DNA of 64,000 bases from Streptomyces sp. RKND-216. Lineage in GTDB: Bacteria; Actinomycetota; Actinomycetes; Streptomycetales; Streptomycetaceae. Shown here piece after piece: positions 6,001-19,088 of the stretch. The DNA lies in contig NZ_SSBQ01000002.1 in the NCBI RefSeq assembly GCF_004795255.1, positions 1,035,001-1,099,000 of the forward strand. The letters run 5' to 3'. Within the stretch, counting starts at the first letter, position 1; every line of letters starts with the position of its first letter. Position numbers and translations under genes: made by a program. Under the pieces are notes generated by a model. It had not been told where the DNA came from and searched no databases. It saw only the letters and a program-made list of their open reading frames with translations.

Positions 6001-7430
6001 TGCGGGGCGGCGGCGTCGAGCATGCTGGTGAAGACCACGGGGGAGGCATCCGCGCCTCGGCCGCGCAGGGCGCGCCGGGCCGTGACGCCGCAGACCGCGG
6101 AGTGTTCCAGCGCGTTCCACAACTCCTGATGGGTCTGCCGTGCCGCTTCCTCCAGGGTGAGTTCGTTGGGAAGGACGGCCTCCACCGCGACCGTGCTCGT
6201 GAAGGGCCCGACGAGTTGGTCGGCGCCCGACGGCAGGAGGGTGCGTCGGCTAGTGGTGATGGTGACGGAGAACGGCTCAAACGCCCCGCATCGGGCCAGC
6301 GCCTCGGTGAAGAGGGTCAGCACCAGCGAGGTGGGGGTGACGCCGAACGCGGCGGCGCGCCGGCGCACGGCGCTCCACTCCGCGGGTGTCAGCCGGTCGG
6401 AGCGCGCGCGGCGTCGCAGCCCGGGGGCACCCGGCGGGCGTGGCGCGACGTCGTCCCGCACCACGGCGGGGGGCCCGGGGAGTTCGGCCAGCCGGGACGT
6501 CCAGTGGGCGAGCGCCCGACGGTGGCCGGCGGTGTGCGTGCGGTCGGCGAGTGCGACCAGGCAGTCCCGTGCTGTGTACGGAGGCGAGGGGAGGACCTGA
6601 TCGAGGTCCTCGTACAGGGCCTTCCACTGGGCGGCCAGCAGGTCCAACCCGGCTCCGTCAGTGATGAGAGCGTCGATGCTCCAGTGCACCCGGGCGTGCC
6701 CGTCGGCGCGGCGCGTCACCTCGACAGCGAAGAGCACGGAGGCGTCGGAACCGAAACAGGCGTGGGACATCCTTGCGCGGGTGCGGGCCGCGCGGAGGTC
6801 GAAGTCGTCGGGCTCCGCGGCCGGGTCCGGTTCCGAGACGGGAATCTCCCAGCGGGGCCCCACGGTGAGGATCTGCTGCCTGCCGTCGTCGGTGCGTGCG
6901 GACCGGAGCATTTCGTGGTGCTCGATCAGACGCTGCCAGGCGGCGCGGAGTCGGCCCGTGTCGAGCGCGGGCACGTCGAACTCACGATAGAGGTGGCAGC
7001 CGACGGGGTCGTCCGTGAGCTCGGGCGTGCGGCCGGCAAGGTACGCCTGCTGGAGCGGGGTGAGCGGGAAGGGGTCCGACGCCCGGGCAGGGTCGGCGGT
7101 CACGGTCACCAAGTGGCCGCCCGTCTCGCCCGCCGACCCTTCCTGTTCGGCAAGTTCTGCCGCCCTCGCCCCGAACTCGCCGAGTGTGGCTGCCTCCGTG
7201 AACCAGCCGAGGGGTGTTTCGATGCCGAAGTCTTCCTGCAGCGCGAGCCAGAGACGGGCAGTCGTCATCGAGTCGAGTCCCAGGCCCTTCAGTTGCGTGT
7301 CTGGGGTGACGGCTGTCTCGCCGGGCCGCAACCCGGTCAGCAACCGGCTGAGCGTCTCCCCTATACGCACTGGCAGGGGGTCGTCTGCCCGCGTGTGCTC
7401 GCCGGGCTCAGGACCGGATGCGACCGCCAT
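1..7430 (-). CDS. lnmI-like: Hybrid NRPS-PKS, LnmI-like, partial (C-terminus beyond left edge)
   Basis: One uninterrupted minus-strand frame from an ATG at 7430, with a GGGGGAG ribosome site, to the window edge (at least 2476 residues). Domains in order: carrier (Ser54 in GLDSMTT); Cy1 (about 120-545: FPLTPLQQAY, PVVFTS, VWLDHQ, but DALITDGAG has Gly for the last Ser of DxxxxDxxS); Cy2 (about 547-960: intact DLTLADAVS, PVVYTS, degraded VWLDHQ-type motif); A domain (about 964-1475: FTSGSTGRPKGV; pocket read as D-L-F-N-F-S-L-V-W-K, close to the cysteine code DLYNLSLIWK); PCP (about 1530-1600); SagB/nitroreductase-like FMN oxidase (about 1650-1885, thiazoline to thiazole); KS (from about 1914; Cys2075 in DTSCASS, intact KPNIGH, but the usual His of HGTGT is Ala near 2210). 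A post-KS linker follows with no AT, so this is an AT-less assembly line. Predicted role: add and cyclise cysteine onto an aminoacyl starter, oxidise it to a thiazole, and pass it to PKS modules. Confidence 0.93.
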   Translation of the reverse strand, partial: MAVASGPEPGEHTRADDPLPVRIGETLSRLLTGLRPGETAVTPDTQLKGLGLDSMTTARLWLALQEDFGIETPLGWFTEAATLGEFGARAAELAEQEGSAGETGGHLVTVTADPARASDPFPLTPLQQAYLAGRTPELTDDPVGCHLYREFDVPALDTGRLRAAWQRLIEHHEMLRSARTDDGRQQILTVGPRWEIPVSEPDPAAEPDDFDLRAARTRARMSHACFGSDASVLFAVEVTRRADGHARVHWSIDALITDGAGLDLLAAQWKALYEDLDQVLPSPPYTARDCLVALADRTHTAGHRRALAHWTSRLAELPGPPAVVRDDVAPRPPGAPGLRRRARSDRLTPAEWSAVRRRAAAFGVTPTSLVLTLFTEALARCGAFEPFSVTITTSRRTLLPSGADQLVGPFTSTVAVEAVLPNELTLEEAARQTHQELWNALEHSAVCGVTARRALRGRGADASPVVFTSMLDAAAPQRERGFADALVYATSQTSGVWLDHQMWERSGGLELRWDVADAMLLPGVPDAAFAAFRNALRTLAGDSNERERRPLNELQQAYYVARRTAERQTWSGCQVYVSYEVPGTVDLVRLEAALVRLAAAHDVLRSAVTLDGAVDVSAWAPEEWTIPVIEGASVEETREAMMATPFPPARRPQWDLRLTRGEDHDTVHLCLDLTLADAVSIHALGRSLMRLYARPQSTPETGEPYERHLRALRDRRAAPEQSEWRAHWEQALAGLPSGPVLGGPADDGAEPRRIRLQGRVAGWTAFTDRAARHGLTPDAALLTAFTDILSLYHDGDFAVPVVRWDGPDAAYRPGEFTALSWLARPSGDLPFTERARAHLTALTSDAAVPTSGLAQLRRRTATGETGHPVVYTSVLDLTGDPLPDGVRQGEWRTCTPNVSLDCITTVEDDGTLHYCWDVRQSDFDEADLQEWFSAYGAAVQHLVTEEEWDSPAVEGPAPLTEEERRVILHEWNDTAHEFDGDRLIHTAFEERARLTSEAVALRWRGGSMTFREVNQRANRLARELRSRDVGPETVVAVSLPRGPLMVAAVLGVLKAGGVYLPIEPGLPAERAAVVLEEAGCATVVTTSDRRGWLPPDGVAEVRADELPADPEADSSDPEPVAEPHQTAYIIFTSGSTGRPKGVAVAHRPVLNLLDWARRTFAFDASDLGLCVTSLGFDLSVFDVFGLLGYGAGLYIADEEQQRDPALLLDVLLSEPVTFWNSAPTTLAQIAPLLADHHGSAGTETLRLVFLSGDFTPLSLPGDVRAAFPRADLVSLGGATEATVWSNWFPIRDIDPEWRSIPYGRPLDNCRYHVLDDSMQPCPVGVEGDLYIGGECLALGYVNQPELTSERFLPDPFHDDPAERLYRTGDRASYFPDGNLCLHGRADGQVKIRGFRVELGEIEHRLRLHDAVKDVVVVSRGEGEERTLVAYVVPRGAAPAPRALRAHAAAALPDYMVPNFFGYLRSFPATANGKLDRQALPWPVPGPPEPGERAVPAASGEAPGDAPPDESHGDEPGTVADTRIAAASAGPSLDELRDEIAGLFADALGVPQVDPEADLWDQGATSFTMVQVSGTLQRRHHQRIPVSALLDKPYVTAIASRLHRGATDEVAAVARPAESSTSEGRGDDERPEDGEQPPVRAPHSGSREDGPGPVDFFSPEERARFKAGRWNSRPARPGEPVVPLNAEPFDEELYAWRASRRDFLDRPVPHADFCRLLSLLRDAPTASGRRRLHPSAGDTYAVQTYLHLTADAVTGIDEGLYHYDPSEHVLRRIDPVQRALRSGHFVYNREVFDRSRFGIYLVGRRPGIEPLYGEESLRYLTLEAGHMGQLLMMGQAAAGVGLCPIGALSFEGLATSLGLDEGHVFLQAFLGGAASHASSSAAGLRPPFGRPATTPVGTVAAVQTGPWPQLPAAPEPMAVIGMAGRFPGADDLDTFWDNLASGRSAVGPVPPSRGEVARGGTRPRGGFLDGIDRFESLLFHVSPAEAPFVDPQARLLLEAVWRCLEDAGHTAESLRLSAGRVGVFIGTMWQDHRLRGADHWADGGPARTPATASDVPNRISHFFDFQGPSMAVDTSCASSLAALHLAVESLRRGECGAAVVGAANLLAHPYHWGLLEGMELLATSGTPEAFPADGSGWYPGEGVAALLLRPAAAATDAGDVVHGLVEGTRMSHVGRAPRYGAPRAERLADSLSRALAEAGSAPGDIDYVECAAAGSGIADVAELEALSEVFATSGDAPRLPVGTLKPNIGHLEAASGLSQVIKVLLQMRHGTIAPTTVARRRNDLVDWAALPVEVVDRGRPWTEKAADGRRTALVNAVGATGSYGHAILTSRPPDREQAADAVPESATFDHDAGGPDTRRLLLLSADTRERLATAARTLCDHLTTHAANLNLPDVAWTLQTGRVPHAHRLALTARTLPGAVAGLGRFLDGQAGSDLRTGVADPAAGAADGDPARVVDQWLRGHEVDWARMWPVPGRRV

Positions 7431-7493
7431 GTGTCGTACTCCCCCAGGTGGAAGTGTCTGCCTTGCTCCGACGCAAGCAGCATAGAAAGACAA

Positions 7494-7532
7494 AACCCGT
7501 CTATTCGCTCAGAAGTGAGCAAAAGACGGGTT
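7494..7532 (-). terminator. Intrinsic terminator between the lnmH-like and lnmI-like genes
   Basis: On the minus strand, AACCCGTC (7532-7525) pairs with GACGGGTT (7501-7494), enclosing a second small stem GCTCA/TGAGC, and a T-rich run follows. It lies 23 nt after the stop of the upstream gene and ends that transcript before the NRPS-PKS. The inner stem is also operator A, so terminator and operator overlap. Confidence 0.7.
7507..7520 (-). promoter_or_regulatory. Operator A: predicted Crp/Fnr-type site upstream of the NRPS-PKS
   Basis: On the minus strand this reads GCTCA-CTTC-TGAGC, a perfect 5-N4-5 inverted repeat. A -10 hexamer TATGCT lies at 7484-7479, with its last base 34.5 nt from the dyad centre. 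That puts the predicted start near 7472 and the dyad at about -41.5, the class II Crp/Fnr activator position. The same spacing is seen at operators B and E. The binder is inferred to be the regulator encoded at 15285-15989. Confidence 0.6.
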
Positions 7533-7554
7533 CCGTAAGAGAGTCGAGACGGGG

Positions 7555-8427
7555 TCAGCTCAGCGGAGGGAGGGGCGCGCAGGCCACGTCGCCCATGCTG
7601 CCGTCCACGAAGATGCGGTTCCAGGTGCCGCCGCCCTTCTCGGGCGCGATGATTTCGTCGAGGTAGATGTCTCGGACCTCGTCATCCATGCGCATGTGCA
7701 TGTCGATGAGGTCGTAGTACGCGTTCTCCGAATGCATGTGGATCAGCCAGTGCGTACGGTCGGCCGGGCCGAAAGCCTCCTCGTACAGGAAAGAAGAGGC
7801 GATGCCGGGCAGCCGGGTGTTGATGGACTCCGTGATGCGGCGGGCAAACATCCGCGCCTCCGCGCGAAAAGCGTAGCGGGGCTGAGCCACCCGGTGGATG
7901 ATCAGACCGGCGTTCGCCGAGTGCACCGTGTCCCGCGGGGCCACGGCGGTCTGCTCCTGCGCCGGGGGCACCCGCAGGCCCGGAGTGGCGTCCGCGATCC
8001 GCGTGCCGTCGGGCAGCACCTCGTCGGTCCCGTACATACCCCACCCCTGCGGGATGAGTGCCGTCTCCTCGAAGGACCCGTCGGTGAACATGCCCTGCCA
8101 GTCGGTCTCCGCCGCCGGGCCCTCGTCGCCGTCCAAGAGTGCGGAAACGGCCCTGAAGCCGGCGAGGGACCGCAGGTGGATCATCCAGTGCAGACGGTCC
8201 CGCCGCCCGAAAGCCTCTTCCAAGACGAACACCGTCACCTCACCGGCGTACTTCGTGTTGAGAAACTCGGCCTGAAGCAGCGCGATACGGCGCCCCTCCG
8301 CCCGGTGGGCCTGCTTCAGCTGAGCGGTCCGCTTCACCACCACGCCCGCGTTGGTCGAGTGCAGCAGCGTCTCCGCGCTCACCGACGTCTGCCGGTGCGC
8401 GTGCACGGGAGCCGGGCTCACGGTCAT
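7555..8427 (-). CDS. Unknown protein with two internal repeats, LnmH position
   Basis: 290 residues; the ATG at 8427 is preferred over the GTG at 8433 because GAGGAG sits six bases before it. The protein is two copies of one unit (about 20-95 and 165-280). Each begins HSxNAG followed by a hydrophobic strand, continues with FRAE/HRAE and a helix, then EEAFGxxDRxHWxIHM/L. The C-terminal copy ends GGGTWNRIFVDGS. The strand-helix-strand pattern with EE...DR.HW.IH resembles dimeric alpha-beta barrel proteins (ABM/NIPSNAP type); this is inference from pattern only. A paralogue with the same double-repeat plan lies at 18171-19088. It is the last gene of the hydratase / AT-ER / unknown operon, next to the NRPS-PKS, the place lnmH holds as I remember the leinamycin cluster. 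Function unknown. Confidence 0.85.
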   Translation of the reverse strand: MTVSPAPVHAHRQTSVSAETLLHSTNAGVVVKRTAQLKQAHRAEGRRIALLQAEFLNTKYAGEVTVFVLEEAFGRRDRLHWMIHLRSLAGFRAVSALLDGDEGPAAETDWQGMFTDGSFEETALIPQGWGMYGTDEVLPDGTRIADATPGLRVPPAQEQTAVAPRDTVHSANAGLIIHRVAQPRYAFRAEARMFARRITESINTRLPGIASSFLYEEAFGPADRTHWLIHMHSENAYYDLIDMHMRMDDEVRDIYLDEIIAPEKGGGTWNRIFVDGSMGDVACAPLPPLS

Positions 8428-8485
8428 CTTCACTCCTCGGTCTCGGTCCTCGATCGGCGCGTGCCCGGTCGGGCTCCGCCGGACA

Positions 8486-10795
8486 TCACGTGTGCACCAG
8501 GCGGGCGAAGCGCCTGCCCAGCACCTCGGCGGCGCCGGTCATCAGTGCTTCGGCGATCGCGTCCACATGCCGGTCCCGCCAGTCCTCCATCGGCGTACCG
8601 CGGACGTGGTGGTTGAACGCACCGATGGCGGGCCCGCACTGGATCTGAAAGTTCACCCGCTGGGCCGGGTCGCCCTCCAACGCCCAGGTGACGCTGCGCG
8701 CGAAGTACCAGCGGAAGGTCAGGGCCATGCGCTGCTTGGGCGAGCGTTCCGCCTTTTCGATCTCCCTGCCGCGGCCCCGGGCCAGGTGGTGGGCGCGAGC
8801 TTCCTCCCACACCTGAGCGAACGGACGCTGGAAGTAGGTCTCTTCCACCACGCGGCGCGTCGTCTCGTCGATCGACTCCCAGGCGTCGTACTGGCGGTAG
8901 AGCTGGTACAGCTTGTTGCCCCGGGCTGCGAACATGGTGGCCTTTCGGACCACCTGCACCCGGGCGCCCAACTCGAACATGTCGCCGGCGGGGGCGTACG
9001 CGGTGTCCTGGACGTCGAGCCCCGCGAGCAGGTCCTTCACGGCATCGGACGTCCCTGCCTCGACGGAGCACTGGTTGACGCTTCCCGTCAGGACGAAGTC
9101 CGCGCCAAGGACGAAGGCCGCCGCCACGGTCGACGGTGCTCCGATGCCTCCGGCCGCTCCCACCCGGATACGTTTGCGGTAGCCGTGGCGTTCCATGGCG
9201 GCGTCCCGGTGCCAGAGCATGGCCGGCAGCAGGGTGAAGGCGGCGCCGCCGTCGGTGTGCCCCCCGGAGTCGGCTTCGACGCAGATGTCCCCGCTCACGG
9301 GCAACTCGGTGGCGATCCTTGCCTCCTCGGGAGTGAGGAGTTCCTCTGCGACGAGGCGGTCCACCAGCGCCGCCGGGGCGGGCGACATGAACGCTTCCGC
9401 CACCTCGGGGCGGGAGACCTTGGCGATCACCTGGTTCGGCGCCAGGGGCGCGCCCTGCGCATCCCGGTGAGCGCCCGCGAAGCGGAAGCGGACGGCGGCG
9501 GGAGTAAGTTGGGTGAACCCTGCGGCCTCGACGGTACGGACGCCGTGCCGAAGGTATAGGTCGATGACGGCGTTCTCGTACCCGGGGTCGTCGATCGAGT
9601 GCAGCAGATTCATGCCGAACCGGTCACCCGTACCCAGCGCACCCTGTATGCGCAGCAGTTCCTTCTCGACCGTGCCGAGGTCCAGACCGCCCGCCCCGAA
9701 AAAGCCTTTCAGCCCGCTCTGCCCCAGTCTGATCACCAAGTCCGCCGAGGCGATGCCGCGGAACATCGCCCCCGCGAGGTAGGAGTAACGGAGTCCGTGA
9801 TCGCGGCGGAACTCCGGGCACCCCAGCTCACCTGCTCGGACGAGGCGGTGTCCTTCGCCTCCCACAGGACCGGGGGCGGGTTCGGCCGACGGCGGTCGCC
9901 CATACCCGGACACCCCGTCGGTCCCCGCGGCACCGCCGGCTGGCTCCGTGGCGGACTTTTTCTTGGCGTCGGCCCACAGGCCGCTCAGCACGCGTCCCGG
10001 ACCGGTCTCCTCCAGATCCTCGACCCCGTGGTCGACCAGGTACCGCATGGTCCGGTGCCACTGCACGGGCTGGTGCATCTGACGAGCGAGCAGTTCGGCC
10101 ACCTGGCCGGCCCCGTAGGGGGCGGCGGTGACGTTGGCGAGTACGGGGATGCGGGGGTCGGCGAACGAGAACTCGCGCAGGTACTCCGCGAACTCGTCCG
10201 CGGCCTCCTTCATGTACCGCGAGTGGAAGGCCGCGCTGACCCTGAGCGGGACGCTGCGCACGCCGTCGTGACGCGACAGCTCTCTCGCCACGTCACGCAG
10301 TACGTCCGTCGGCCCCGACAGCACGGCTTGCGAGGCGGAGTTGAGGTTGGCCACGTCCACCAGTCCACGGTCCGCGCCGTTCGTCAGCGCTGACACACTT
10401 TCACCGGATACTCCCAGGACGGCCAGCATCCCACCGGCCGCGGCCTGACCCATGAGCTCGCCGCGGCGGTGGACCAGTCGCACTCCGGTGGCGAAATCGA
10501 AGACACCAGCGGCGAGCAGCGCGTTGTACTCGCCCAGGCTGTGTCCGGCCAGATACCGGGGGGCGGGGAGCGCCGGGTCCCGTGCGAGGTGGGAGAGCGC
10601 GTTCACCACGAACAGGGCGGGCTGCGCGTACTCCGTGCGGTCGAGGTTTCCGTCGCCGCCAGTGCGGCACAGTTCCTCGATCGAGTGTCCGACGACGGCG
10701 TCAGCCGCGGCCGTCAACTCGGGGAAGCGAGCGAACAGGTCCCCTCCCATGCCCCTGCGCTGGGAGCCCTGCCCGGGAAAGACCAGTACCGTCAT
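8486..10795 (-). CDS. lnmG-like: Trans-acting acyltransferase-enoyl reductase didomain (LnmG-like)
   Basis: 769 residues. The N-terminal AT (about 1-300) begins VLVFPGQGSQ, has nucleophile Ser86 in GHSLGEY and an AAFHSRYM motif; the FH form marks malonyl-CoA specificity. The C-terminal half (about 335-769) is a PfaD-type FMN enoyl reductase of the nitronate monooxygenase fold (SGDICVEADSGGHTDGG, GAAGGIGAPSTVAAAFVLGADFVLTGSVNQ). In AT-less PKS systems such a protein loads malonyl units onto all modules in trans and reduces chosen enoyl intermediates. This fits the neighbouring NRPS-PKS, which lacks an AT after its KS. The ATG overlaps the stop of the upstream hydratase gene (TGATG), so the two are translationally coupled. 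AT-ER fusion plus gene order are the strongest single pointers to the leinamycin family. Confidence 0.95.
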   Translation of the reverse strand: MTVLVFPGQGSQRRGMGGDLFARFPELTAAADAVVGHSIEELCRTGGDGNLDRTEYAQPALFVVNALSHLARDPALPAPRYLAGHSLGEYNALLAAGVFDFATGVRLVHRRGELMGQAAAGGMLAVLGVSGESVSALTNGADRGLVDVANLNSASQAVLSGPTDVLRDVARELSRHDGVRSVPLRVSAAFHSRYMKEAADEFAEYLREFSFADPRIPVLANVTAAPYGAGQVAELLARQMHQPVQWHRTMRYLVDHGVEDLEETGPGRVLSGLWADAKKKSATEPAGGAAGTDGVSGYGRPPSAEPAPGPVGGEGHRLVRAGELGCPEFRRDHGLRYSYLAGAMFRGIASADLVIRLGQSGLKGFFGAGGLDLGTVEKELLRIQGALGTGDRFGMNLLHSIDDPGYENAVIDLYLRHGVRTVEAAGFTQLTPAAVRFRFAGAHRDAQGAPLAPNQVIAKVSRPEVAEAFMSPAPAALVDRLVAEELLTPEEARIATELPVSGDICVEADSGGHTDGGAAFTLLPAMLWHRDAAMERHGYRKRIRVGAAGGIGAPSTVAAAFVLGADFVLTGSVNQCSVEAGTSDAVKDLLAGLDVQDTAYAPAGDMFELGARVQVVRKATMFAARGNKLYQLYRQYDAWESIDETTRRVVEETYFQRPFAQVWEEARAHHLARGRGREIEKAERSPKQRMALTFRWYFARSVTWALEGDPAQRVNFQIQCGPAIGAFNHHVRGTPMEDWRDRHVDAIAEALMTGAAEVLGRRFARLVHT

Positions 10796-11628
10796 CAGTT
10801 TCGGCCCCCGCCCTCGTCGGGACGCACTTCCCAGGGGAGCCTGCCGGCGGTGGCCAGGCTCCCGACCCGCCGGCGGACGACGGGTGAGCTCATCAGCCGT
10901 GTGAATTCCCGCAGCGCGTGCTCCTCGGTCTCCTCGGTGTCGGGCCTCAGGGCCCGCATATACGCCTTGAGCTCTCCCACAGTGACGGGGTCGATCCGGG
11001 TCGTCCTGACGAGTAAACGCTGGAGAGCGTGCTCCGGGTCGTCCACCACCTCGTCGACCAGGCCCCAGCGCTCCGCCTCACGCGCCGAGACGGGCTGAGT
11101 GCCGAGCGCCATCGTGTGCGCCCGTTGCAGACCGGTGCGCTTGACCAGGAAGGGCAGGACACAGCAGGGCAGCAGGCCCCACAGCGCCTCGGGTAGGCTG
11201 AACCGGCTGCGTCCGGTCGCGAAGACGAAGTCGCTGGCCGCGGCCAGACCGACCCCGCCACCTGCCGCCCGGCCATCCACACAGGAGACGACCACCACCC
11301 GAGCGGTGGTGAAGCGGCGCATCAGGTTCAGGAACGCCTCGCCCCCGGCCGCCATCGAGGCGCCGCCGGACACCTCGGCGGCCGCGCTGGAGAAGTCCAG
11401 GCCGGTGCTGAAGATTCCGCCCGCGCCCTCGAGCGCCATCATCACGCAGTCCGGGTCGGACTCCGCCCGGGTCAGGGCGTGCCCGAGTTCGTCCACAACT
11501 GCGCCGTCAAGACTGTTCTGGCGTTCTGGCCTGTTCAGGGTGACGCGCAGGACGGCCGACTCACGCGTCACCCGCAGCGCGGTGCCGGTCCGTTCGGGCG
11601 GCGGTTCGGGGAGGGCGGAGGGATCCAC
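10795..11628 (-). CDS. lnmF-like: Enoyl-CoA hydratase/isomerase family protein (LnmF-like)
   Basis: 277 residues from a GTG at 11628 with GGAG six bases upstream. A longer frame opens at 11730, but that codon lies inside operator B and the extra 34 residues look non-coding. Crotonase-fold signatures: [10 protein letters not shown] near the start, an oxyanion-hole stretch [29 protein letters not shown], and [12 protein letters not shown]. In AT-less pathways ECH1-type proteins dehydrate HMG-type ACP intermediates during beta-alkyl branching. LnmF has that role in leinamycin, where a propionate-derived branch carries the sulfur chemistry. The HMG synthase and acyltransferase/decarboxylase partners are not in the window and are expected further left. 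First gene of the operon with AT-ER and the LnmH-position gene; the 3' end overlaps the AT-ER start. Confidence 0.85.
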
Positions 11629-11722
11629 GGGATGCTCCAGTCGTGAGGACGTGCAGGGCCGCGGTTCGCCGAAGGCTCCAGGTCCTTCGCCGTCGGACCT
11701 TAGCGGGCCGACCTGCGCAGTG

Positions 11723-11740
11723 CCGCTCACAATTGAGCGG
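11723..11740 (-). promoter_or_regulatory. Operator B with promoter for the hydratase operon
   Basis: Perfect 7-N4-7 palindrome CCGCTCA-CAAT-TGAGCGG, the longest of the set. A -10 hexamer TAAGGT lies on the minus strand at 11702-11697, 34.5 nt from the dyad centre, identical to operator A. The start near 11690 leaves a leader of about 60 nt to the GTG at 11628. The palindrome overlaps the upstream in-frame GTG at 11730, which argues against that codon as the start. Confidence 0.65.
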
Positions 11741-11772
11741 GGGCTCCGGCCCGGGGCGCAGGCGATCGGCCC

Positions 11773-13089
11773 CTATGACCCGAGCCCGGGCTCCGCGGCC
11801 GGCTCCGCGTTCGAGGACCGTGCGAAGAACGTGCCGAGGAGTTCTGCGAGTTCGTGCGGCCGGTCGTGCACCACATGGTGTCCCGCTGCCAACAGCTGTA
11901 CATGACGACCGCCGGGGAACCGGCGGACGTCCCGTACGAGCCGGTCCGGGGACGCGGTCCGGTCGAGTGCACCGGTGACTGCGAGGACGGGGACCGTGAC
12001 CCGTGGGGCGTGCGGCAGTGGATCACACGTCCAGAAGTCGAGGAGCTGACGCGCGTACGCACGGAGGACCGGGGCACTCGAGAAGGGTCGTCGCGCCTCC
12101 TCCGCCAGCGCGCGGGACGGAGCCGACAGGACATGCCGGGCACAGGCGGCCGCGTCCGAAGCGGCGGCGTCCGGGGGTTTTTCCAGGTCGCCGGCCAGCA
12201 TCCGCCGCATCGCCTCCGCGAGCGCGGGCCGGCGGGCGACCGACCAGCACATCGACTCCAGGTTCCGTTCATACGCGGTGTCCGGGTCGTCGGGGCGGTC
12301 GAGCACGCGGAAGGACCCGTGGAGGAACGCCATGGACCGTACGGCTGCGGGTGCACGCCGGTGGAATTCCAAAGCCACCTTGGGACCCGTGCACCAGGCC
12401 AGCAGGTGGCAGTCGCGGACACCCTCGGCGTGCAGCACGGCCACCAGGTCGGCCACGTGATCGTTCAGACGCAGTGGACGCTCTCCCGGGGCGCAGCCAC
12501 GAGGGCTCCAGGCGAGGACGCGGTGGTCGTGCGCGAGGACCGCGATGAGCCGGTGCCACGGGCCGAGCCCCATGCCGAGTGCGTTGAGGACGACGACGGG
12601 CGCGCGCGAGGGGTCCGGTTCGCCCGCCGCATGGTACGTCAGGACGCCCCCCATGACTCCAACCCGCCGCAGCGGTTCCTGGGCGACGTGCGCCGCCTGG
12701 GTGTCCAGCAGTCGGTCCGACTCGTTCTGCCGACGACGGGCGGCTTCGATCAGGGCGTCGGTTCCCGACCACGGGACGGCGCCCGGGCCGGCTGGGTGCG
12801 TGACGCCGCGGTGGGAGGATCCGCGGGACGCCCGGTGCTCCAGCAGGCGGTCGACGACGGTGGGGCCGTGCTCGTCCTGGGTCGGGCGGACGGTCACCCC
12901 GTAAGCCCGCCCGAGGCGGGCGGCCAAGTGCGCAGCTCCCCCGTTTCCGGGGCCCGTGGCCCTCTCCAGAAGGACCTCTGGCACGGTCAGCGGGTGTCGG
13001 CCGAGGTAGTCCGTGGAACGGGCCCGAACCTCGACGACCGTGTCGTGTACCGCGTCGAGGAGCGGCAGGAATCTTTCGATGGCATCCAA
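11773..13089 (-). CDS. Alpha/beta hydrolase with a Cys in the nucleophile position
   Basis: The C-terminal part (from about residue 155) is an alpha/beta hydrolase: an oxyanion region LNALGMGLGPWH, then nucleophile elbow LAWCTGP where the usual GxSxG Ser is Cys, an acidic candidate in TGALDRTA, and the catalytic-type His in AGHHVVHDRP. The preceding stretch (LAARLGRAYGVTVRPT...PTVVDRLLEH) faintly resembles the end of a carrier-protein domain but has no phosphopantetheine Ser. The start is uncertain: the frame is open to 13419, but the residues upstream look non-coding, contain a GGCA repeat and would swallow operator C. I use TTG 13089 (AGGGA upstream); GTG 13203 is the alternative. It sits in the lnmE position. 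A thioesterase or acyltransferase role is possible but unproven. Confidence 0.7.
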   Translation of the reverse strand: MDAIERFLPLLDAVHDTVVEVRARSTDYLGRHPLTVPEVLLERATGPGNGGAAHLAARLGRAYGVTVRPTQDEHGPTVVDRLLEHRASRGSSHRGVTHPAGPGAVPWSGTDALIEAARRRQNESDRLLDTQAAHVAQEPLRRVGVMGGVLTYHAAGEPDPSRAPVVVLNALGMGLGPWHRLIAVLAHDHRVLAWSPRGCAPGERPLRLNDHVADLVAVLHAEGVRDCHLLAWCTGPKVALEFHRRAPAAVRSMAFLHGSFRVLDRPDDPDTAYERNLESMCWSVARRPALAEAMRRMLAGDLEKPPDAAASDAAACARHVLSAPSRALAEEARRPFSSAPVLRAYARQLLDFWTCDPLPHAPRVTVPVLAVTGALDRTASPDRLVRDVRRFPGGRHVQLLAAGHHVVHDRPHELAELLGTFFARSSNAEPAAEPGLGS

Positions 13090-13155
13090 CGCGGGCCGTC
13101 CCTGTGGTGTCGGAGGTCTGTCGGCCAGCCTCCAGCCCTGCCCCGGCGCCGCACT

Positions 13156-13169
13156 GCCCAGAATTGAGC
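13156..13169 (-). promoter_or_regulatory. Operator C: predicted Crp/Fnr-type site upstream of the hydrolase
   Basis: Minus strand GCTCA-ATTC-TGGGC, one mismatch from the perfect inverted repeat seen at A, B and E. A weak -10-like hexamer GAGGCT ends 35.5 nt from the dyad centre. If real, the gene should start downstream, supporting the 13089 start. Confidence 0.45.
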
Positions 13170-13279
13170 GGCGCGCCTCGCTCTTCTCCCGGAAATCGCG
13201 CACGGCCCGACAGGGCGCCCCATGGCGTCGGGCCGAAGCGGCGGCTGTGCCGAGGGACGGGCGACAGCGGCCGGTGACG

Positions 13280-13301
13280 GGCAGGCAGGCAGGCAGGCAG
13301 G
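13280..13301. repeat. Tetranucleotide repeat (GGCA)n
   Basis: About five tandem GGCA units in the leader of the hydrolase gene, between it and the divergent P450. If the longer 13419 frame were translated, slippage here would shift its reading frame. More likely it is untranslated leader. Confidence 0.7.
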
Positions 13302-13410
13302 CCGAGGATGGGGCCGGTGGGCCGGTCGACACGGGTCGGCCAGTCAACCTGGCGGCAACCATCCGCGCCCCGGACGGGGCAGTTGCCCCCGAAGGCCGCA
13401 GACTCCGGTC

Positions 13411-13424
13411 GTGACCCATCTCAC
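13411..13424. promoter_or_regulatory. Classical Crp-type palindrome GTGA-N6-TCAC
   Basis: GTGACCCATCTCAC is a perfect 4-N6-4 inverted repeat of the classical Crp half site. It lies in the divergent region 164 nt upstream of the P450 start. Its half site and spacer differ from the GYTCA-N4 set, so a global Crp is a better candidate binder than the cluster regulator. Confidence 0.4.
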
Positions 13425-13477
13425 GACATGGCCCGCCTTGGGGTTCACACGATCACACTCTCCGTGTACGAATGGTT

Positions 13478-13491
13478 GTTCAAGAGTGAGC
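13478..13491 (+). promoter_or_regulatory. Operator D: predicted Crp/Fnr-type site upstream of the P450
   Basis: GTTCA-AGAG-TGAGC, flanked by T and A to give a 6-N4-6 inverted repeat with one internal mismatch. It ends 96 nt before the P450 start. A weak -10-like CAGTCT ends at 13520, 35.5 nt from the dyad centre. Confidence 0.5.
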
Positions 13492-13587
13492 AGACCAAAG
13501 CTTCCCCGGTCCGCCAGTCTCGCGTGGCCAGGAGTCCCACCGGTCAACGCGTTCCCTGCTGTCAAGGGCGTGAGGAGTTCGAACGGC

Positions 13588-14787
13588 ATGACGAGTTCGG
13601 AACGGGTCCACACCTACCCCTTCGAAGGAGAGGTGGACGGGCTGGACATCCACCCCCGTCTCACCGAACTCCGCGAAACGGAACCGCTAGCCCGACTGCG
13701 TCTCCCGTACGGCGGCGACGGCTGGCTGGTCACCCGCTACGAGGACGTGAAGAGCGCCAACTCCGACCCGCGTTTCAGCCGTGCGTCGATCGGAGAGGAC
13801 ACCCCTCGTACCACGCCCCTGGCACGCCGAGGGGACACGATTCTCAGCATGGACCCGCCCGAGCACACTCGCCTGCGCCGTCTGCTGTCCAAGGCTTTCA
13901 CCGCGCGCAGTATGGCCGCGTTGCAGCCTTGGCTCGAGGAACTCTTCTCCTCCCTGCTCGATGCCGCGGAACGCAAGGGGCCGCCCGCCGACGTCGTGAA
14001 GGACCTCGCCGAGCAGTTCACCATCGCGGTGATATGCCGCCTGCTTGGCGTGCCGTACGACGACCGCGCCAGCTTCCAGCACTGGTCGGAGGTGATCATG
14101 TCGACCACCACCTACTCCAGGGAGGAAGCCGAGGAGGCCGATGCCGCCATCCGCCGCTATCTGGGGGATCTCGTCGCTGCTCGTCGGGCCGAGCCCCACG
14201 ACGACCTGCTGGGCGACCTGGTGGCGGCCAGGGACGAGGGGGATCGGCTGACCGAGGAGGAGCTGATCACCTTCGGTGTCACGTTGCTGGTGGCGGGGCA
14301 CGAGACCTCGGCCCATCAACTGGCGAACATGGTGTACGTCCTCCTCACCCATGACAGCCAGCGGGCGCTCCTTGGCGAGAACCCTGATCTCCTTCCGCGA
14401 GCGGTGGAGGAACTGCTGCGTTTCGTGCCGCTGGGCAACGGTATCGGTAATGCCCGGATCGCGACCGAGGACGTCGCTTTGAGCGGGGGCACGGTCCGAG
14501 CGGGCGAAGGCGTCATGGCCGCCGCGGTCAACGCCAACCGAGACCCCCGCGTGTTCACCGATCCCGACCGCCTGGACGTGACGCGGGAGACGAATCCACA
14601 CTTGGCCTTCGGACACGGAGCGCACTATTGCCTGGGGGCCCAACTGGCCCGCCTCGAACTGCGAGTAGCTCTGGGGGCGCTCCTGGAACGCTTCCCGGGA
14701 ATACGCCTCGCTGTAGCACCGGAAGAGGTCGAGTGGAAAAGGGGGGGTCTCTTCCGAGGCCCTCGACGACTGCCGATCGCATGGTGA
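13588..14787 (+). CDS. lnmA-like: Cytochrome P450 (LnmA-like tailoring oxygenase)
   Basis: 399 residues, the normal size of a soluble bacterial P450. The ATG at 13588 follows GAGGAG; the longer open frame upstream is non-coding. I-helix AGHETSAHQ (acid-alcohol pair E-T), K-helix EELLR, and heme loop FGHGAHYCLGAQLAR with Cys348 as thiolate ligand. Uses electrons from the ferredoxin encoded 8 nt downstream, the same two-gene arrangement as lnmA-lnmB. Likely hydroxylates the finished or nascent macrolactam; substrate and position cannot be told from sequence. Operator D upstream suggests control with the rest of the cluster. Confidence 0.93.
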   Translation: MTSSERVHTYPFEGEVDGLDIHPRLTELRETEPLARLRLPYGGDGWLVTRYEDVKSANSDPRFSRASIGEDTPRTTPLARRGDTILSMDPPEHTRLRRLLSKAFTARSMAALQPWLEELFSSLLDAAERKGPPADVVKDLAEQFTIAVICRLLGVPYDDRASFQHWSEVIMSTTTYSREEAEEADAAIRRYLGDLVAARRAEPHDDLLGDLVAARDEGDRLTEEELITFGVTLLVAGHETSAHQLANMVYVLLTHDSQRALLGENPDLLPRAVEELLRFVPLGNGIGNARIATEDVALSGGTVRAGEGVMAAAVNANRDPRVFTDPDRLDVTRETNPHLAFGHGAHYCLGAQLARLELRVALGALLERFPGIRLAVAPEEVEWKRGGLFRGPRRLPIAW

Positions 14788-14794
14788 GGATTCG

Positions 14795-15025
14795 ATGACC
14801 ACTGGCTCCCGTTGGCGCGTGCAAGCCGATCACGGCGCGTGCATGGGCACCGGAATCTGTGCCGGTATCGCTCCGCACCGCTTTCGGGTCATCGATGGCC
14901 GCTCGGTCCCCACTCCCGAGGAGTCGCCCCCGGACCAGGAGGTGTGGGACGCGGTCGAGTCATGCCCGATGGAAGCGCTGCGCATACTTGACGCTGCGAG
15001 CGGTGAAATCCTGAGCCCCATCTGA
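14795..15025 (+). CDS. lnmB-like: [3Fe-4S]-type ferredoxin (LnmB-like)
   Basis: 76 residues. Cysteines lie in DHGACMGTGIC near the N-terminus and SCPMEAL near the C-terminus; the spacing CxxxxxC...CP is typical of the small single-cluster ferredoxins that serve Streptomyces P450s. It starts 8 nt after the P450 stop with GAGGA before the ATG, so the two are cotranscribed and it is the presumed redox partner. No ferredoxin reductase gene is present in the window. Confidence 0.92.
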   Translation: MTTGSRWRVQADHGACMGTGICAGIAPHRFRVIDGRSVPTPEESPPDQEVWDAVESCPMEALRILDAASGEILSPI

Positions 15026-15208
15026 CTCCCCGACCGCGAGGGGCGACTGCGGGGCGCGCCTCCTCCCTCCACGGGCACCCAGGCTCCCGGCCGCTCGTCC
15101 TGTGCAACGCAGGGCGCTCCCCTGGTGCGCATGCCCGAGTCTCCGCCACTCCGGTGCGACGGGGGTGCTCTCCGCGTTCTCTCACCGGGGCGTGCGCTGC
15201 CCCGAATC

Positions 15209-15222
15209 GCTCAGCTCAGATC
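15209..15222 (+). promoter_or_regulatory. Weak half-operator upstream of the crp/fnr gene
   Basis: GCTCA-GCTC-AGATC: one perfect half site and a second arm matching three of five positions, 62 nt before the regulator start. No good -10 at the shared spacing. It could allow weak autoregulation or be chance. Confidence 0.2.
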
Positions 15223-15284
15223 CGGACGACTGCCGACAGCAGCCGGTTCTCCCGGCTTCCCTGCCTCACAGGAGTACTCGCCAG

Positions 15285-15989
15285 ATGAGCATCTCGTACG
15301 CCCCCACAAGCCCTGCGGTGACATCTCCCACCAGCTTCATGAGCAGAATCAGAGAAAGCCTGGAATGCCGTACGCGGATCGGCACACGCGTCACCCTGGC
15401 AAAGAACGATTGCGCGTACAGCTGCGGCGATCCCGACCGGAACATCTACTTCCTTGAGAGTGGAAGTCTCAAAACGGTCACCTTCTCCCGGAACGGCAAG
15501 GAATGTCTCCTCCGTATATGTTGCCCGGGGGAGGTGTTCGGCGAACAGGGCAGCGTCTTCGGCCACGTTCGATCGGAGTCGACCATCGCGATGCAGGACA
15601 GCGTCATGCGGCGGATGCCGTACTCCCGCTTCCTCAGCGCCATCGCCGACGAGGGACTCGTCGGCGACTTTGTAGCCTACCTCGCGTACCGGCTGGCCGA
15701 GCAACAACAGGCCATAACGAATCTGACCACCGTGGACAGCGAACAGCGCCTGGCCACCACACTGCTCGACTTGGCCAACAAACTCGGAAACGGCGATCCG
15801 GTCTACACCCGCATCGAACAGCGCCTGACTCATGAGGAGTTAGCCCGCATGGTGGGCACGACACGGTCCCGCATCGGATTCTTCCTGAAGACCTTCCGAG
15901 CCCACGGGCTGCTGGACATCTCTCCGTCGTCCCGCTTCATCATCCACCGACCGCGACTTACAGCGTACCTCGAAACGCGGCACAGCTGA
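15285..15989 (+). CDS. lnmO-like: Crp/Fnr-family transcriptional regulator (LnmO-like)
   Basis: 234 residues; ATG 15285 has GGAG ten bases upstream, while the frame open from 15102 is leader. N-terminal cyclic-nucleotide-binding fold (PGEVFGEQGSVFG), long dimer helix, then a winged HTH (LTHEELARMVGTTRSRIGFFLKTF). The recognition helix lacks the E-R pair that reads GTGA in Crp and FNR, in line with a different half site (GYTCA). Several cysteines (CAYSC, RICC) could bind metal or sense redox. It contains a TTA codon at 15840-15842, so translation should need the bldA tRNA. Gene order regulator-PCP-A matches lnmO-P-Q; I recall LnmO as the pathway activator. Predicted to bind operators A to E. 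Confidence 0.88.
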   Translation: MSISYAPTSPAVTSPTSFMSRIRESLECRTRIGTRVTLAKNDCAYSCGDPDRNIYFLESGSLKTVTFSRNGKECLLRICCPGEVFGEQGSVFGHVRSESTIAMQDSVMRRMPYSRFLSAIADEGLVGDFVAYLAYRLAEQQQAITNLTTVDSEQRLATTLLDLANKLGNGDPVYTRIEQRLTHEELARMVGTTRSRIGFFLKTFRAHGLLDISPSSRFIIHRPRLTAYLETRHS

Positions 15990-16046
15990 CCCCCAACTCG
16001 CCCGCCGACCTGGATCCGGATACGCCGAGAGGAAGCTCGATTCGCC

Positions 16047-16310
16047 ATGTGGAATCATCGCTTCGAGTCCATAGTAAGAAACCACCTTCCGCATCTGGAT
16101 ACGGAAACACCACTGACCCCCGACCTGTTGCTCTCCGCACACGGCCTGGACTCCATGGGAGTTTTCGGGCTCATCACCGATCTCGAGGAAGCGTACGCCC
16201 TCACCCTGCCCGACGAGGCAGTCGTCCCGGCCAACTTCGCCACGCCGCGCACGGTTTGGGACATGCTCTTACCCCTCGTACCCCTCGGCCACGACGAGCC
16301 CGCCGGATGA
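16047..16310 (+). CDS. lnmP-like: Stand-alone carrier protein (LnmP-like PCP)
   Basis: 87 residues, one carrier domain. The phosphopantetheine Ser is in HGLDSMGVFGLI (about residue 35). It starts 57 nt after the regulator gene with GAGAGGA upstream, and its TGA overlaps the next gene's ATG (ATGA), coupling it to the adenylation enzyme that should load it. By analogy with LnmP/LnmQ it carries the starter amino acid, probably D-alanine, to the NRPS-PKS. The gene has a TTA codon at 16269-16271, a second bldA-dependent gene in the cluster. Confidence 0.92.
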   Translation: MWNHRFESIVRNHLPHLDTETPLTPDLLLSAHGLDSMGVFGLITDLEEAYALTLPDEAVVPANFATPRTVWDMLLPLVPLGHDEPAG

Positions 16311-17923
16311 GGGCGCCCGTGGACACCTTGGCGGACAAGGAGAGGGTCACCTTGCTGCACGAGTGGTTTCTGGACGGACTCGCTGCAGCCCCGGAAAGTG
16401 TCGCACTGCGACTGGGGGACGCGTTCTGGACCTATGAGGAGTTGCACCGCATGTCGTGCGACTGGGCTGGGGCGCTTCTCGCCGGCTGCGGCCGGACACC
16501 CCGGAGCGTCGGCGTTCTGGCCTCCAAGACGCCGGAGGCCTACATCGGACTTCTCGCAGGACTCTACGCGGGAAGCACGGTCGTGCCTCTCAGCCCGGAA
16601 CATCCCCTCGAGCGCAATCGCGAAGTCGCCCGCGCGGCCGGACTCGAAGCTCTGGTTGTCGACAGGGCCGGCGCCGTGCAGATAGGCGCGTTGGCCGCGG
16701 TCGCGCCCCTGCAGGTCTGCCTCACCGCCTCAGCGAGCTCCGACTCCCCCTCCGGCGTGCGGCTGGTCGTCCCCGACGGGAGCGAGAGGACCGAACCACA
16801 GCGCGGTGGGGAAGACGGGCACGCGTACGTCCTGTTCACTTCCGGCTCCACTGGCCGCCCGAAGGGCGTGCCCGTACGGCACGGCAACATCAGTGCATTC
16901 CTGCGCGCCGCCCTTCCCCGGTACGCGCTGGGACCCAAGGATGTCTTCAGCCAGGTCTACGAACTGACCTTCGATCTTTCCATGTTCGAAGTCTGGGCGG
17001 CGTGGGGAAGCGGAGCCTGTCTCACCGTGCTCAACCGCGTCCAGGCGCTGGCCCCGGAGAGGTTCGCGGCACGTCGAGGCGTCACCGTCTGGACCTCGAC
17101 GCCGAGCCTCGCCGCAGCGGTGCAGAGCCGCGGCACCGTGTCTGCCGGAGCCCTTCCCGATCTGCGCTACACCGTGTTCTGCGGCGAACCCCTGCCGACG
17201 GAGACCGCACGTCAGTGGTCGACGGTGGCGCCGAACACGGTGATCGACAACCTGTACGGGCCGACCGAACTCACCGTGGCGTGCACAGGCCACCGCTGGG
17301 ACCCGGACCGTGCCGATTCCGACCACAGCAACGGCATCGTTCCCATAGGCCGGCCGTTCAGCGGCGTAGGCTGCCTTCTGCTGGACGAGCACGGCGACGC
17401 CTCAGCCGTCGCGGGTGAGCTGTGTGTCAGCGGACTGCAACGCTTCGACGGGTACCTCGACCCGGAGAACGACGCGGGACGATTCGTGGAAGTCGACGGC
17501 GCACGCTGGTACCGGACGGGCGACCGGGTGCGGTGGGAGGGCGCGGAACTCGTACACCTCGGCAGAATGGACGACCAAGTCAAGGTCCACGGTTACCGCG
17601 TCGAACCGGGCGAGGTCGAGGAGGCGGTGCGGCGTGCCGCACCCGATCTGGACGCCGTGGTTCTCGCACTGCCCGCCCCCTCCGGCACGTTGCTCGCCGC
17701 TTTCGTCCTCCGCGTGAGCGACCTGGACACCGCAGCGCTGTTGAAAAAGATGGCCGAGCACCTTCCCTTCTACATGCTGCCGCGGCATCTGTGGCCGCTC
17801 TCCGATCCCCCGCTCACAGCGAATGGCAAGATCGACAGGGGTTGGCTCCGCGAGGAGGCCGGGAGACGCATGGCGGCGCTCCCTCCGCAGAAGGAATCGG
17901 CGAACGTCCGGTCCTCCGCCTGA
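16307..17923 (+). CDS. lnmQ-like: Stand-alone adenylation enzyme (LnmQ-like)
   Basis: 538 residues. A-domain core motifs in order: LFTSGSTGRPKGVPV, FDLSMFEVW, NLYGPTELTVA, YRTGDRVRW, GRMDDQVKVHGYRVEPGE, and catalytic Lys in NGKIDRGW. Pocket residues read as D-L-F-T-V-C-L-V-A-K, which I cannot match to a standard code. Its nearest look-alikes are DltA-type D-alanine ligases. With the leinamycin parallel, where LnmQ activates D-alanine, alanine is the best guess for the starter. It overlaps the carrier gene by 4 nt. The final 20 residues are an uneventful tail and no carrier is fused. Confidence 0.9.
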   Translation: MRAPVDTLADKERVTLLHEWFLDGLAAAPESVALRLGDAFWTYEELHRMSCDWAGALLAGCGRTPRSVGVLASKTPEAYIGLLAGLYAGSTVVPLSPEHPLERNREVARAAGLEALVVDRAGAVQIGALAAVAPLQVCLTASASSDSPSGVRLVVPDGSERTEPQRGGEDGHAYVLFTSGSTGRPKGVPVRHGNISAFLRAALPRYALGPKDVFSQVYELTFDLSMFEVWAAWGSGACLTVLNRVQALAPERFAARRGVTVWTSTPSLAAAVQSRGTVSAGALPDLRYTVFCGEPLPTETARQWSTVAPNTVIDNLYGPTELTVACTGHRWDPDRADSDHSNGIVPIGRPFSGVGCLLLDEHGDASAVAGELCVSGLQRFDGYLDPENDAGRFVEVDGARWYRTGDRVRWEGAELVHLGRMDDQVKVHGYRVEPGEVEEAVRRAAPDLDAVVLALPAPSGTLLAAFVLRVSDLDTAALLKKMAEHLPFYMLPRHLWPLSDPPLTANGKIDRGWLREEAGRRMAALPPQKESANVRSSA

Positions 17924-18061
17924 GCGTTCTCGGATCGGGATCCGTACGGCTTTTCCGCCCCCACGGGCAAGCCGGAAGCCCGGCTGAGCGTCGGCGTACC
18001 AAGGACGATCACGCACCCACGGGAATATTCCGGACGCGGCGTCGCCGGATGCGCACGGAAA

Positions 18062-18077
18062 TGCTCAGATCTGAGCA
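18062..18077 (+). promoter_or_regulatory. Operator E upstream of the second double-repeat gene
   Basis: Perfect 6-N4-6 palindrome TGCTCA-GATC-TGAGCA. A -10-like hexamer AAGCAT ends at 18104, 34.5 nt from the dyad centre, the same spacing as A and B. It lies 93 nt before the ATG at 18171. Confidence 0.6.
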
Positions 18078-18170
18078 GCCAGGGCGGCCGTCCGCGAGAA
18101 GCATGGAGTGGGCCGGGCGCTACAAGCCGGTCTCACCCACCATCTCGTCCAGACCAGAAAAGGACTCGCC

Positions 18171-19088
18171 ATGGCCCAGACTGAGAAGTCGGACCGGCCG
18201 GAAACCGGCAGCACCTTCCTCCCCGCGCTGGCCACCATGCCGGATACTGGCGACTCACTGCTGCACTCCGGCAACGCCGGACTCATCATTCACCGAGCCG
18301 GTCAGCTCAGGCACGAGTTCCGCGCTGAAGGCCGCGCGTTCGCCAGCGACCTGGTGAGCTACCTCAACAAGCCGGTGGCGGGCGTCGCCACGATCATGGT
18401 CTTCGAGGAGATCCTGGGCGACGTCGACCGGCTGCACTGGCTGATCCACATGAAGATGCCCAACGACTACCGTCGCTTCCTGCACGTGGCGGACCACGAT
18501 GCCTCGTTCAAGGAGATCACGGAGGGCGACCGCCTGCCCCAACGCGACGGGGGCAACTGGGAACGCATGTACGTCGAGGGGTCCTTCCAGGAACGGGTGT
18601 ACGTCCCCCAGCACGGCTTGGACCACCACGACGACGAGGAGGGAGAGGAGCCGGAGACTTTCGTGCCTCCCGCGCTGCACCAGACGGGACTCCCGGTCGA
18701 CCGGCTGCGCCACTCCGCCGACACCGGCCTCACCATCCTCCGTTCCGCTCAGACCAAGTTCGAGTTCCGCAACGAGGCCCGCCACTTCGCCTTCGAATGG
18801 GCGCGCCACGTCAACCGTGCCCTCACCGGAGACGTCACGGCGTACCTGTACGAGGAGACCTTCGGGCAACAGGACCGCATCCACTGGATGCTGCATCTGG
18901 ACAATCTTGACAGCTACCGCCGCCTGCTCGAACTGAAGGACTCGGACCAGGAATTCCGGGCCATGCTGGGCCAGCAGTTCGTCCCGGCCCGGAAGGGCGG
19001 GGGCACGTGGGAGCGGACCTTCGTCGACGCCGGCATTCGGGACACCGTGCTGACTCCGCTGCACAGCGGAACAGTCACCGGCTTCTGA
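18171..19088 (+). CDS. Unknown protein with two internal repeats, paralogue of the LnmH-position gene
   Basis: 305 residues from ATG 18171, with AAAGGA upstream; the earlier in-frame codon at 18108 overlaps the promoter. Two copies of the unit seen at 7555-8427: copy 1 (LLHSGNAGLIIHRAGQ, FRAEGR, FEEILGDVDRLHWLIHM, GGNWERMYVEGS) and copy 2 (LRHSADTGLTILRSAQ, FRNEAR, YEETFGQQDRIHWMLHL, GGGTWERTFVDAG). The cluster therefore holds four copies in two genes at its two visible ends. Operator E indicates co-regulation with biosynthesis, which argues for a pathway role. No catalytic motif is recognised; an ABM/NIPSNAP-like fold is a guess. Confidence 0.85.
   Translation: MAQTEKSDRPETGSTFLPALATMPDTGDSLLHSGNAGLIIHRAGQLRHEFRAEGRAFASDLVSYLNKPVAGVATIMVFEEILGDVDRLHWLIHMKMPNDYRRFLHVADHDASFKEITEGDRLPQRDGGNWERMYVEGSFQERVYVPQHGLDHHDDEEGEEPETFVPPALHQTGLPVDRLRHSADTGLTILRSAQTKFEFRNEARHFAFEWARHVNRALTGDVTAYLYEETFGQQDRIHWMLHLDNLDSYRRLLELKDSDQEFRAMLGQQFVPARKGGGTWERTFVDAGIRDTVLTPLHSGTVTGF

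Follow-up and report, generated by a model that had tools for sequence, protein, structure and literature searches.

Which DNA sites does the Crp/Fnr-family regulator of a leinamycin-like gene cluster recognize, and which genes does it control? The question is raised by a 64,000-nucleotide stretch of the Streptomyces sp. RKND-216 genome (contig NZ_SSBQ01000002.1, positions 1,035,001 to 1,099,000, hereafter the window), in which one such regulator is encoded at 15285-15989. An original prediction, made from the sequence of the window, described a shared inverted repeat at five sites, A to E, in front of transcription units of the cluster, and proposed that they are operators of this regulator with the dyad at about -41.5 and a non-standard half site. 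Comparisons of the motif, its spacing and its co-occurrence with the regulator strongly support this proposal: the five sites are most probably operators of the 15285-15989 product, which would activate transcription from the class II position. The sites, their spacing to the -10 hexamer, and a tight association with the regulator subfamily across genera are described below, and from these regularities we infer regulator binding and activation, the starts of the transcripts, the extents of the operons and a ligand.

Candidate operators in the cluster

The degenerate pattern GYTCANNNNTGRGC (GYTCA-N4-TGRGC) was found at exactly the five predicted places of the window (7507, 11725, 13156 on the reverse strand, 13478, and 18063), and the remainder of the 64 kb has no match; all of them fall within 7507-18076, that is, in 11 kb. 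These places yield eight strand matches, compared with a shuffle mean of 0.60 and a largest value of 4 in 100 shuffles. With one mismatch allowed, the pattern is not above chance in the window (16 matches vs 16.1 expected).

The -10-like hexamers TATGCT, TAAGGT and AAGCAT of sites A, B and E each end 34.5 nt from the dyad centre, as claimed, and the weaker hexamers of sites C (GAGGCT, 13132-13127, reverse strand) and D (CAGTCT, 13515-13520, forward strand) were indeed located one base further out. By hand count, the five units have their predicted starts approximately 32-62 nt ahead of the probable initiation codons. A scoring matrix trained on 43 promoters from other organisms and applied to the window as a site part and a combined score ranks the five sites above all other places. 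The combined scores in the direction given in Table 1 are 30.0 for B, 28.8 for E, 23.8 for A, 18.0 for C, and 15.1 for D (19.7 in the opposite direction). In 60 Markov-shuffled windows, the maxima of the combined score had a mean of 6.2 and a highest value of 15.4, and those of the site part had a mean of 11.3 and a highest value of 21.7; in their site part, A, C and D score below this last value.

The exact palindrome GCTCA-N4-TGAGC has eight places in the 5.61-Mb genome, three of which are A, B and E and five of which lie outside the cluster. From the base composition of the window, 4.6 such palindromes would be expected genome-wide and 0.05 within the 64 kb. When a (T/A)AnnnT hexamer is required at the distance seen at these sites, A, B and E are the only matches to the degenerate pattern in the whole genome, and the reversed control gives none. 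One exact palindrome without the -10 spacing (C2:747480-747493) is located near a gene that by eye resembles a ROK-type regulator; it is probably a site of another factor or a chance occurrence.

Predicted operator and promoter spacing beside related regulators

For comparison, a scan with two peptide patterns, of which one covers part of the recognition helix, gave at least 76 loci with related regulators. The 76 listed loci, the best matches, comprise 46 of class SR[IV]G (relatives with the recognition helix GTTRSR[IV]G, as in the window), 24 of class PR[IV]S, 4 of class SR[IV]S, and two outside the helix pattern used. When the 1,024 possible five-base half sites were compared at gaps 0-12, the top inverted repeat in the 46 SR[IV]G loci is GCTCA with gap 4, that is, the motif of the window, with 55 matches vs 1.21 expected in 29 of the loci. 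Its log10 P is -69, compared with -26 for the runner-up; homologous clusters among the 46 loci represent fewer independent events, and P thus overstates their independence. With at most one mismatch, TGCTCA-N4-TGAGCA is present in 41 of the 46 SR[IV]G loci and in none of the 24 PR[IV]S loci.

The spacing was analyzed at 76 degenerate sites including those of the window, reduced to 67 (134 half-flanks) by removal of near-identical flanks. The hexamer TANNNT has its end at +35 in 29 of the half-flanks and at +36 in a further 17, compared with at most one at any other offset between 14 and 63; these positions account for 45 distinct sites of the 67. The peak corresponds to a dyad near -41.5 at a fixed distance from the predicted -10 element, as in class II Crp/Fnr promoters. 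The oriented consensus is TGCTCA-N4-TGAGCA (last base A, 0.59), followed by G (0.70) and then by a hexamer close to TAGCGT.

In the proposed mechanism, (i) a regulator dimer would bind the palindrome TGCTCA-N4-TGAGCA centred at about -41.5, overlapping the -35 region, (ii) the bound dimer would recruit RNA polymerase by class II contacts, and (iii) the target promoters would be those in which the -10 hexamer ends at a constant distance of 34.5-35.5 nt from the dyad centre. The units switched on would be the nonribosomal peptide synthetase (NRPS) gene, the enoyl-CoA hydratase (ECH)/AT-ER/DUF6039 unit, the hydrolase gene, and DUF6039b, with a weaker effect on the P450 gene; the regulator itself might be read through from the P450 unit. 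A regulator that binds the same sites and represses would also cover the -35 element from a dyad at -41.5. We give repression only a slight chance, since the fixed spacing to the -10 hexamer is the signature of a class II activator, and the related LnmO, of the Crp/Fnr type and from leinamycin biosynthesis in Streptomyces atroolivaceus, is cited as a positive regulator (PMC7105598).

Two other arrangements of the palindrome were observed. At G053:C13:68595-68608, G506:C2:1511589-1511602 and G490:C7:35166-35179, the palindrome is flanked on either side by a -10 hexamer at the class II distance, and one dyad may serve a pair of divergent promoters there. Ahead of trans-AT polyketide synthase (PKS) genes, paired palindromes lie 36-37 bp apart (L087:2677/2714, L096:2409/2446, and L098:5378/5414); the upstream member would fall at roughly -78, as class I sites do.

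Conservation and co-occurrence of site and regulator

A syntenic cluster is present in Kitasatospora griseola. Sites A and B are retained there as identical 14-mers, A with TAGGCT at the same distance; site C is an exact palindrome; and site E reads GCTCAAATCTGATC, with one mismatch, 176 bp ahead of the matching gene and with AAACAT ending at +36. In three further genomes, G474, G523 and G532, with regulators 58% identical to that of the window, the site A 14-mer precedes the NRPS gene, and the site B 14-mer is found 5.1-5.2 kb from it and 39-45 kb from the regulator. The B 14-mer precedes DUF6039b-ECH at two of these three places (L178 and L187), G474 being counted by presence alone. Sites A and B have been conserved next to related genes in four clusters besides that of the window.

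Co-occurrence was assessed in 394 Streptomycetaceae genomes, 16 of which encode a relative at E 1e-20 or better, and in 392 genomes of the genus, 15 of which do so at E 1e-25 or better. Site and hexamer occur together in 21 genomes of the first sample (30 places), namely in 11 of the 16 genomes with a relative vs 10 of the 378 without (Fisher p 1.8e-12). The corresponding numbers for the second sample are 19 genomes, 12 of 15, and 7 of 377 (Fisher p 9e-16); the samples partly overlap, as seven of these 19 (G000, G101, G024, G076, G095, G303, and G361) also belong to the positive genomes of the first. The reversed pattern was matched in 13 of the 394 genomes, none with a relative, and in 10 of the 392, two with a relative (G474 and G506).

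Several observations weigh against the proposal. The degenerate pattern without the hexamer barely exceeds the reversed control genome-wide (26 forward and 16 reverse matches vs 11 and 20, or 42 vs 31 strand matches) and is not rare there. Site D is absent from the K. griseola cluster, and site E is present in it only with one mismatch. TANNNT at +35/+36 is lacking at 22 of the 67 non-redundant sites, among them three of the window (C, D and E) and two of K. griseola (B and C). Upstream of the regulator gene itself, only matches with two and three mismatches were found (15209 and 15214), and by eye no hexamer is at the right distance. Finally, the full pattern is unmatched in five of the 16 and three of the 15 regulator genomes; two of the 16, G200 and G208, encode regulators merely 31-32% identical, which may be outside the subfamily.

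The sites could instead belong to another regulator, such as the other full-length HTH_Crp_2 protein of the genome (C2:2583602), probably the global Crp. Such a gene does exist, and the CRP half site likewise contains TG. A global Crp, which we take C2:2583602 to be, should nevertheless give sites in nearly every Streptomyces genome, whereas 373 of the 394 have none at the -10 spacing, and the occurrence of the sites from genome to genome follows that of the cluster regulator, with those of the window clustered in 11 kb; we regard this origin as slightly less probable even than repression. Chance palindromes combined with shared descent of the clusters are hardly credible: many loci are indeed homologous clusters and the five further exact palindromes of the genome are as composition predicts, but the spacing peak persists in the 67 non-redundant flanks, sister classes have other sites at the same spacing (see below), and the reversed controls are low in both genome samples.

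The regulator and known systems

Activation by the 15285-15989 product thus remains the preferred explanation. The protein belongs to the Crp/Fnr superfamily, with a cNMP_binding domain (beta-roll) and a Crp-type winged helix-turn-helix, HTH_Crp_2. It is the only HTH_Crp_2 match in the window, in agreement with the original prediction; the rest of the genome has one match spanning the whole model and four partial matches that reach the cut-off.

By fold the regulator resembles E. coli CRP, with which it would share the dyad at -41.5 and a half site starting with TG. The two differ in the recognition helix, where E181 and R185 of CRP correspond to S195 and F199 by alignment with GlxR, so that the usual E-R pair is absent, as had been noted; they also differ in the half site (TGTGA in CRP vs TGCTCA here). 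In CRP, T127 and S128 of the C-helix contact the base of cAMP. This Thr/Ser feature of the cAMP-binding group is replaced by an invariant Q140-Q141 in the regulator and its relatives, in contrast to the T-N pair of GlxR. E87 and R96 align with the phosphate-binding Glu and Arg of the GlxR cyclic-nucleotide pocket, R96 being invariant among relatives and E87 nearly so. GlxR of Corynebacterium glutamicum is the top-scoring solved structure both by sequence and by fold, with structures within 1 Z unit counted as tied. Its identity with the regulator in the structural alignment is nevertheless 24%, and the recognition helices read RETVNK in GlxR vs RSRIGF in the regulator.

In the oxygen-sensing Fe-S group of FNR proteins, four conserved cysteines hold the cluster. 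In the regulator, only C74 is invariant, both in 24 and in 48 relatives, and C47 is nearly invariant in the 24. The motif was originally termed FNR-type. The 5-N4-5 inverted-repeat geometry is indeed that of FNR, but the sequence is not: TTGAT-N4-ATCAA is unmatched, and the full half site TGCTCA follows the TGnn register of CRP.

Like LnmO, the window regulator is cluster-situated beside P450, ferredoxin, carrier-protein, adenylation-domain, AT-ER and ECH genes; on the basis of this gene content, it may be an ortholog of LnmO. The titles and abstract openings found by our literature search do not report the operator, and one may have been published for LnmO. The operator had been viewed as particular to leinamycin-type clusters, and it belongs rather to a wide Crp/Fnr subfamily. 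For a regulator type found in many polyketide/peptide clusters, the leinamycin-like ones included, the predicted operator and promoter layout is testable; it would allow target genes and the limits of a cluster to be read from sequence, and silent clusters to be matched to their activator.

Sister helix classes

The PR[IV]S loci carry a different site, YGTCCA-N4-TRGACR. With two mismatches, TGTCCA-N4-TGGACA has 46 matches in 21 of the 24 listed loci; with one mismatch, it has 14, and among the other 179 permutations of the half site the highest number is 7. TANNNT ends at +35 at 22 of these sites and at +36 at 3, with at most 3 at any other offset between 25 and 59. In nine PR[IV]S genomes, which are the source of nine motif-giving loci and hence not independent, the strict pattern has 16 places in seven genomes, and the control none.

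The SR[IV]S loci carry TGAGC-N6-GCTCA, with the consensus TGAGCAnTATTGCTCA (derived from 38 partly repeated sites, the outer ten bases being required) in register with the sites of the other two classes. In 60 genomes of one acidobacterial family, this pattern has 33 places in 12 genomes, vs 5 places for the control; the 33 include four palindromes counted twice, once per direction, and G701, the centre of the sample, supplied motif loci. By hand count, 31 of the 33 are in genomes with the regulator, and the genome-level association is weak (10 of 34 regulator genomes vs 2 of 26 others, p 0.036). For both sister classes, 5-gap-5 counts gave no clear motif and did not include GCTCA-N4 among the enriched repeats; the motifs emerged only when the -10 distance was required. 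Another repeat enriched in the SR[IV]S loci, TGAACCGGTTCA, was dropped, because the upstream stretches examined do not contain it and, in several loci, its places are inside the regulator gene.

Comparison of sites of the form TG-nn-C-N6-G-nn-CA with a hexamer suggests a helix-operator code, in which the classes would share one register and differ in the central dinucleotide (TGCTCA, TGTCCA, and TGAGCA). For SR[IV]G, CT was the only dinucleotide found with the hexamer (20 of 31 sites), for PR[IV]S, TC (3 of 4) and CC (1 of 1) were found, and for SR[IV]S, AG (3 of 5), the numbers for the last two classes being small. In Xenorhabdus, GCTCA is kept although the helix reads RSRVGYFMN, and the LK pair is therefore probably not the determinant.

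In a tree of 91 proteins, PR[IV]S and SR[IV]S each form one group, and SR[IV]G needs two changes. SR[IV]G is a single group in 6% of bootstrap trees, and the starred branches alone are compatible with one origin. The window protein and its relatives are nearest to the PR[IV]S group with moderate support (88/82), with bootstrap unsettled and long branches flagged.

With evenly balanced confidence, we propose a large Crp/Fnr subfamily with the half site TGnnCA, N4 and rigid class II spacing, in which nn would be set by helix residues 195 and 198 (window numbering; S/G for CT, P/S for TC, and S/S for AG). In Actinomycetota, and in at least one gammaproteobacterium, the S/G branch would have been recruited as a cluster-situated activator of polyketide/peptide clusters. 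The operator would follow the helix rather than overall kinship, as the window regulator is nearer to the P/S clade than to most S/G proteins, yet has the S/G site. The causal role of residues 195 and 198 is suggested by three classes that differ in other residues too. With a separate site for each of the three helix classes, all in one register, a Crp/Fnr DNA-recognition code would be directly testable.

Genes behind the predicted sites

Downstream frames were picked by length and codon composition, and 30 of 44 were scanned for families. The proteins behind SR[IV]G-type sites elsewhere include trans-AT-type ketosynthase proteins, NRPS, adenylation domains, P450, DUF6039, MFS and O-methyltransferase, as well as DUF1697, DUF6218, a Suc_Fer-like protein, and one protein without a family; at L079, the regulator itself lies behind the site. 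In Xenorhabdus budapestensis (regulator 31% identical), site and hexamer are found ahead of the regulator (ATG 9920) and of a gene that is PKS-like by eye (ATG 11628).

Among 20 proteins scanned behind the sites of the two sister classes, in frames chosen by length, no PKS or NRPS was found. They include superoxide dismutase, desaturase, universal stress protein, metal ATPase, the regulators themselves, and others, six being without a family. A gene with a ThsB-like TIR domain (L070:823-1284) is located directly past a PR[IV]S-class site. SR[IV]S-class sites precede Crp/Fnr regulator genes at L230 and L246, and the L230 site also faces a Ysc84-domain gene.

Features of the cluster

Table 1. 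Predicted operators, -10 hexamers and genes in the window
Feature	Position	Strand	Remarks
Site A operator (predicted)	7507..7520	-	ahead of NRPS gene starting at 7430 (-)
Site A -10 hexamer TATGCT	7479..7484	-	ends 34.5 nt from dyad centre
Site B operator (predicted)	11725..11738	-	ahead of ECH gene (start 11628, -), followed by AT-ER and DUF6039a on the same strand
Site B -10 hexamer TAAGGT	11697..11702	-	ends 34.5 nt from dyad centre
Site C operator (predicted)	13156..13169	-	ahead of alpha/beta-hydrolase gene (start about 13089, -); hexamer GAGGCT at 13127-13132
Site D weak operator (predicted)	13478..13491	+	ahead of P450 gene (start 13588, +)
Site E operator (predicted)	18063..18076	+	ahead of DUF6039b (start 18171, +); second-highest combined score
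Site E -10-like hexamer AAGCAT	18099..18104	+	ends 34.5 nt from dyad centre
Enoyl-CoA hydratase past site B	10795..11628	-	family match
Cytochrome P450	13588..14787	+	Pfam p450; first gene past site D; relative 81% identical in K. griseola
Ferredoxin-like gene	14795..15025	+	named by eye; between P450 and regulator; relative 65% identical in K. griseola
Crp/Fnr-family regulator	15285..15989	+	recognition helix GTTRSRIGFFLK; proposed activator of sites A-E
Carrier-protein-like gene	16047..16310	+	named by eye; relative 69% identical in K. griseola
Stand-alone adenylation domain	16307..17923	+	AMP-binding; relative 69% identical in K. griseola
DUF6039 protein past site E	18171..19088	+	family match

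The cluster encodes two DUF6039 proteins (7555-8427 and 18171-19088), and DUF6039 genes also sit behind the same operator at L068 and L108; the name DUF6039 was not found in a literature search. A short GGCA repeat lies between sites C and D (13280-13302). Elsewhere in the genome, GTTCAACCGTGAGC occurs three times at 60- and 30-base steps (C2:3087942-3088045), resembling a tandem repeat.

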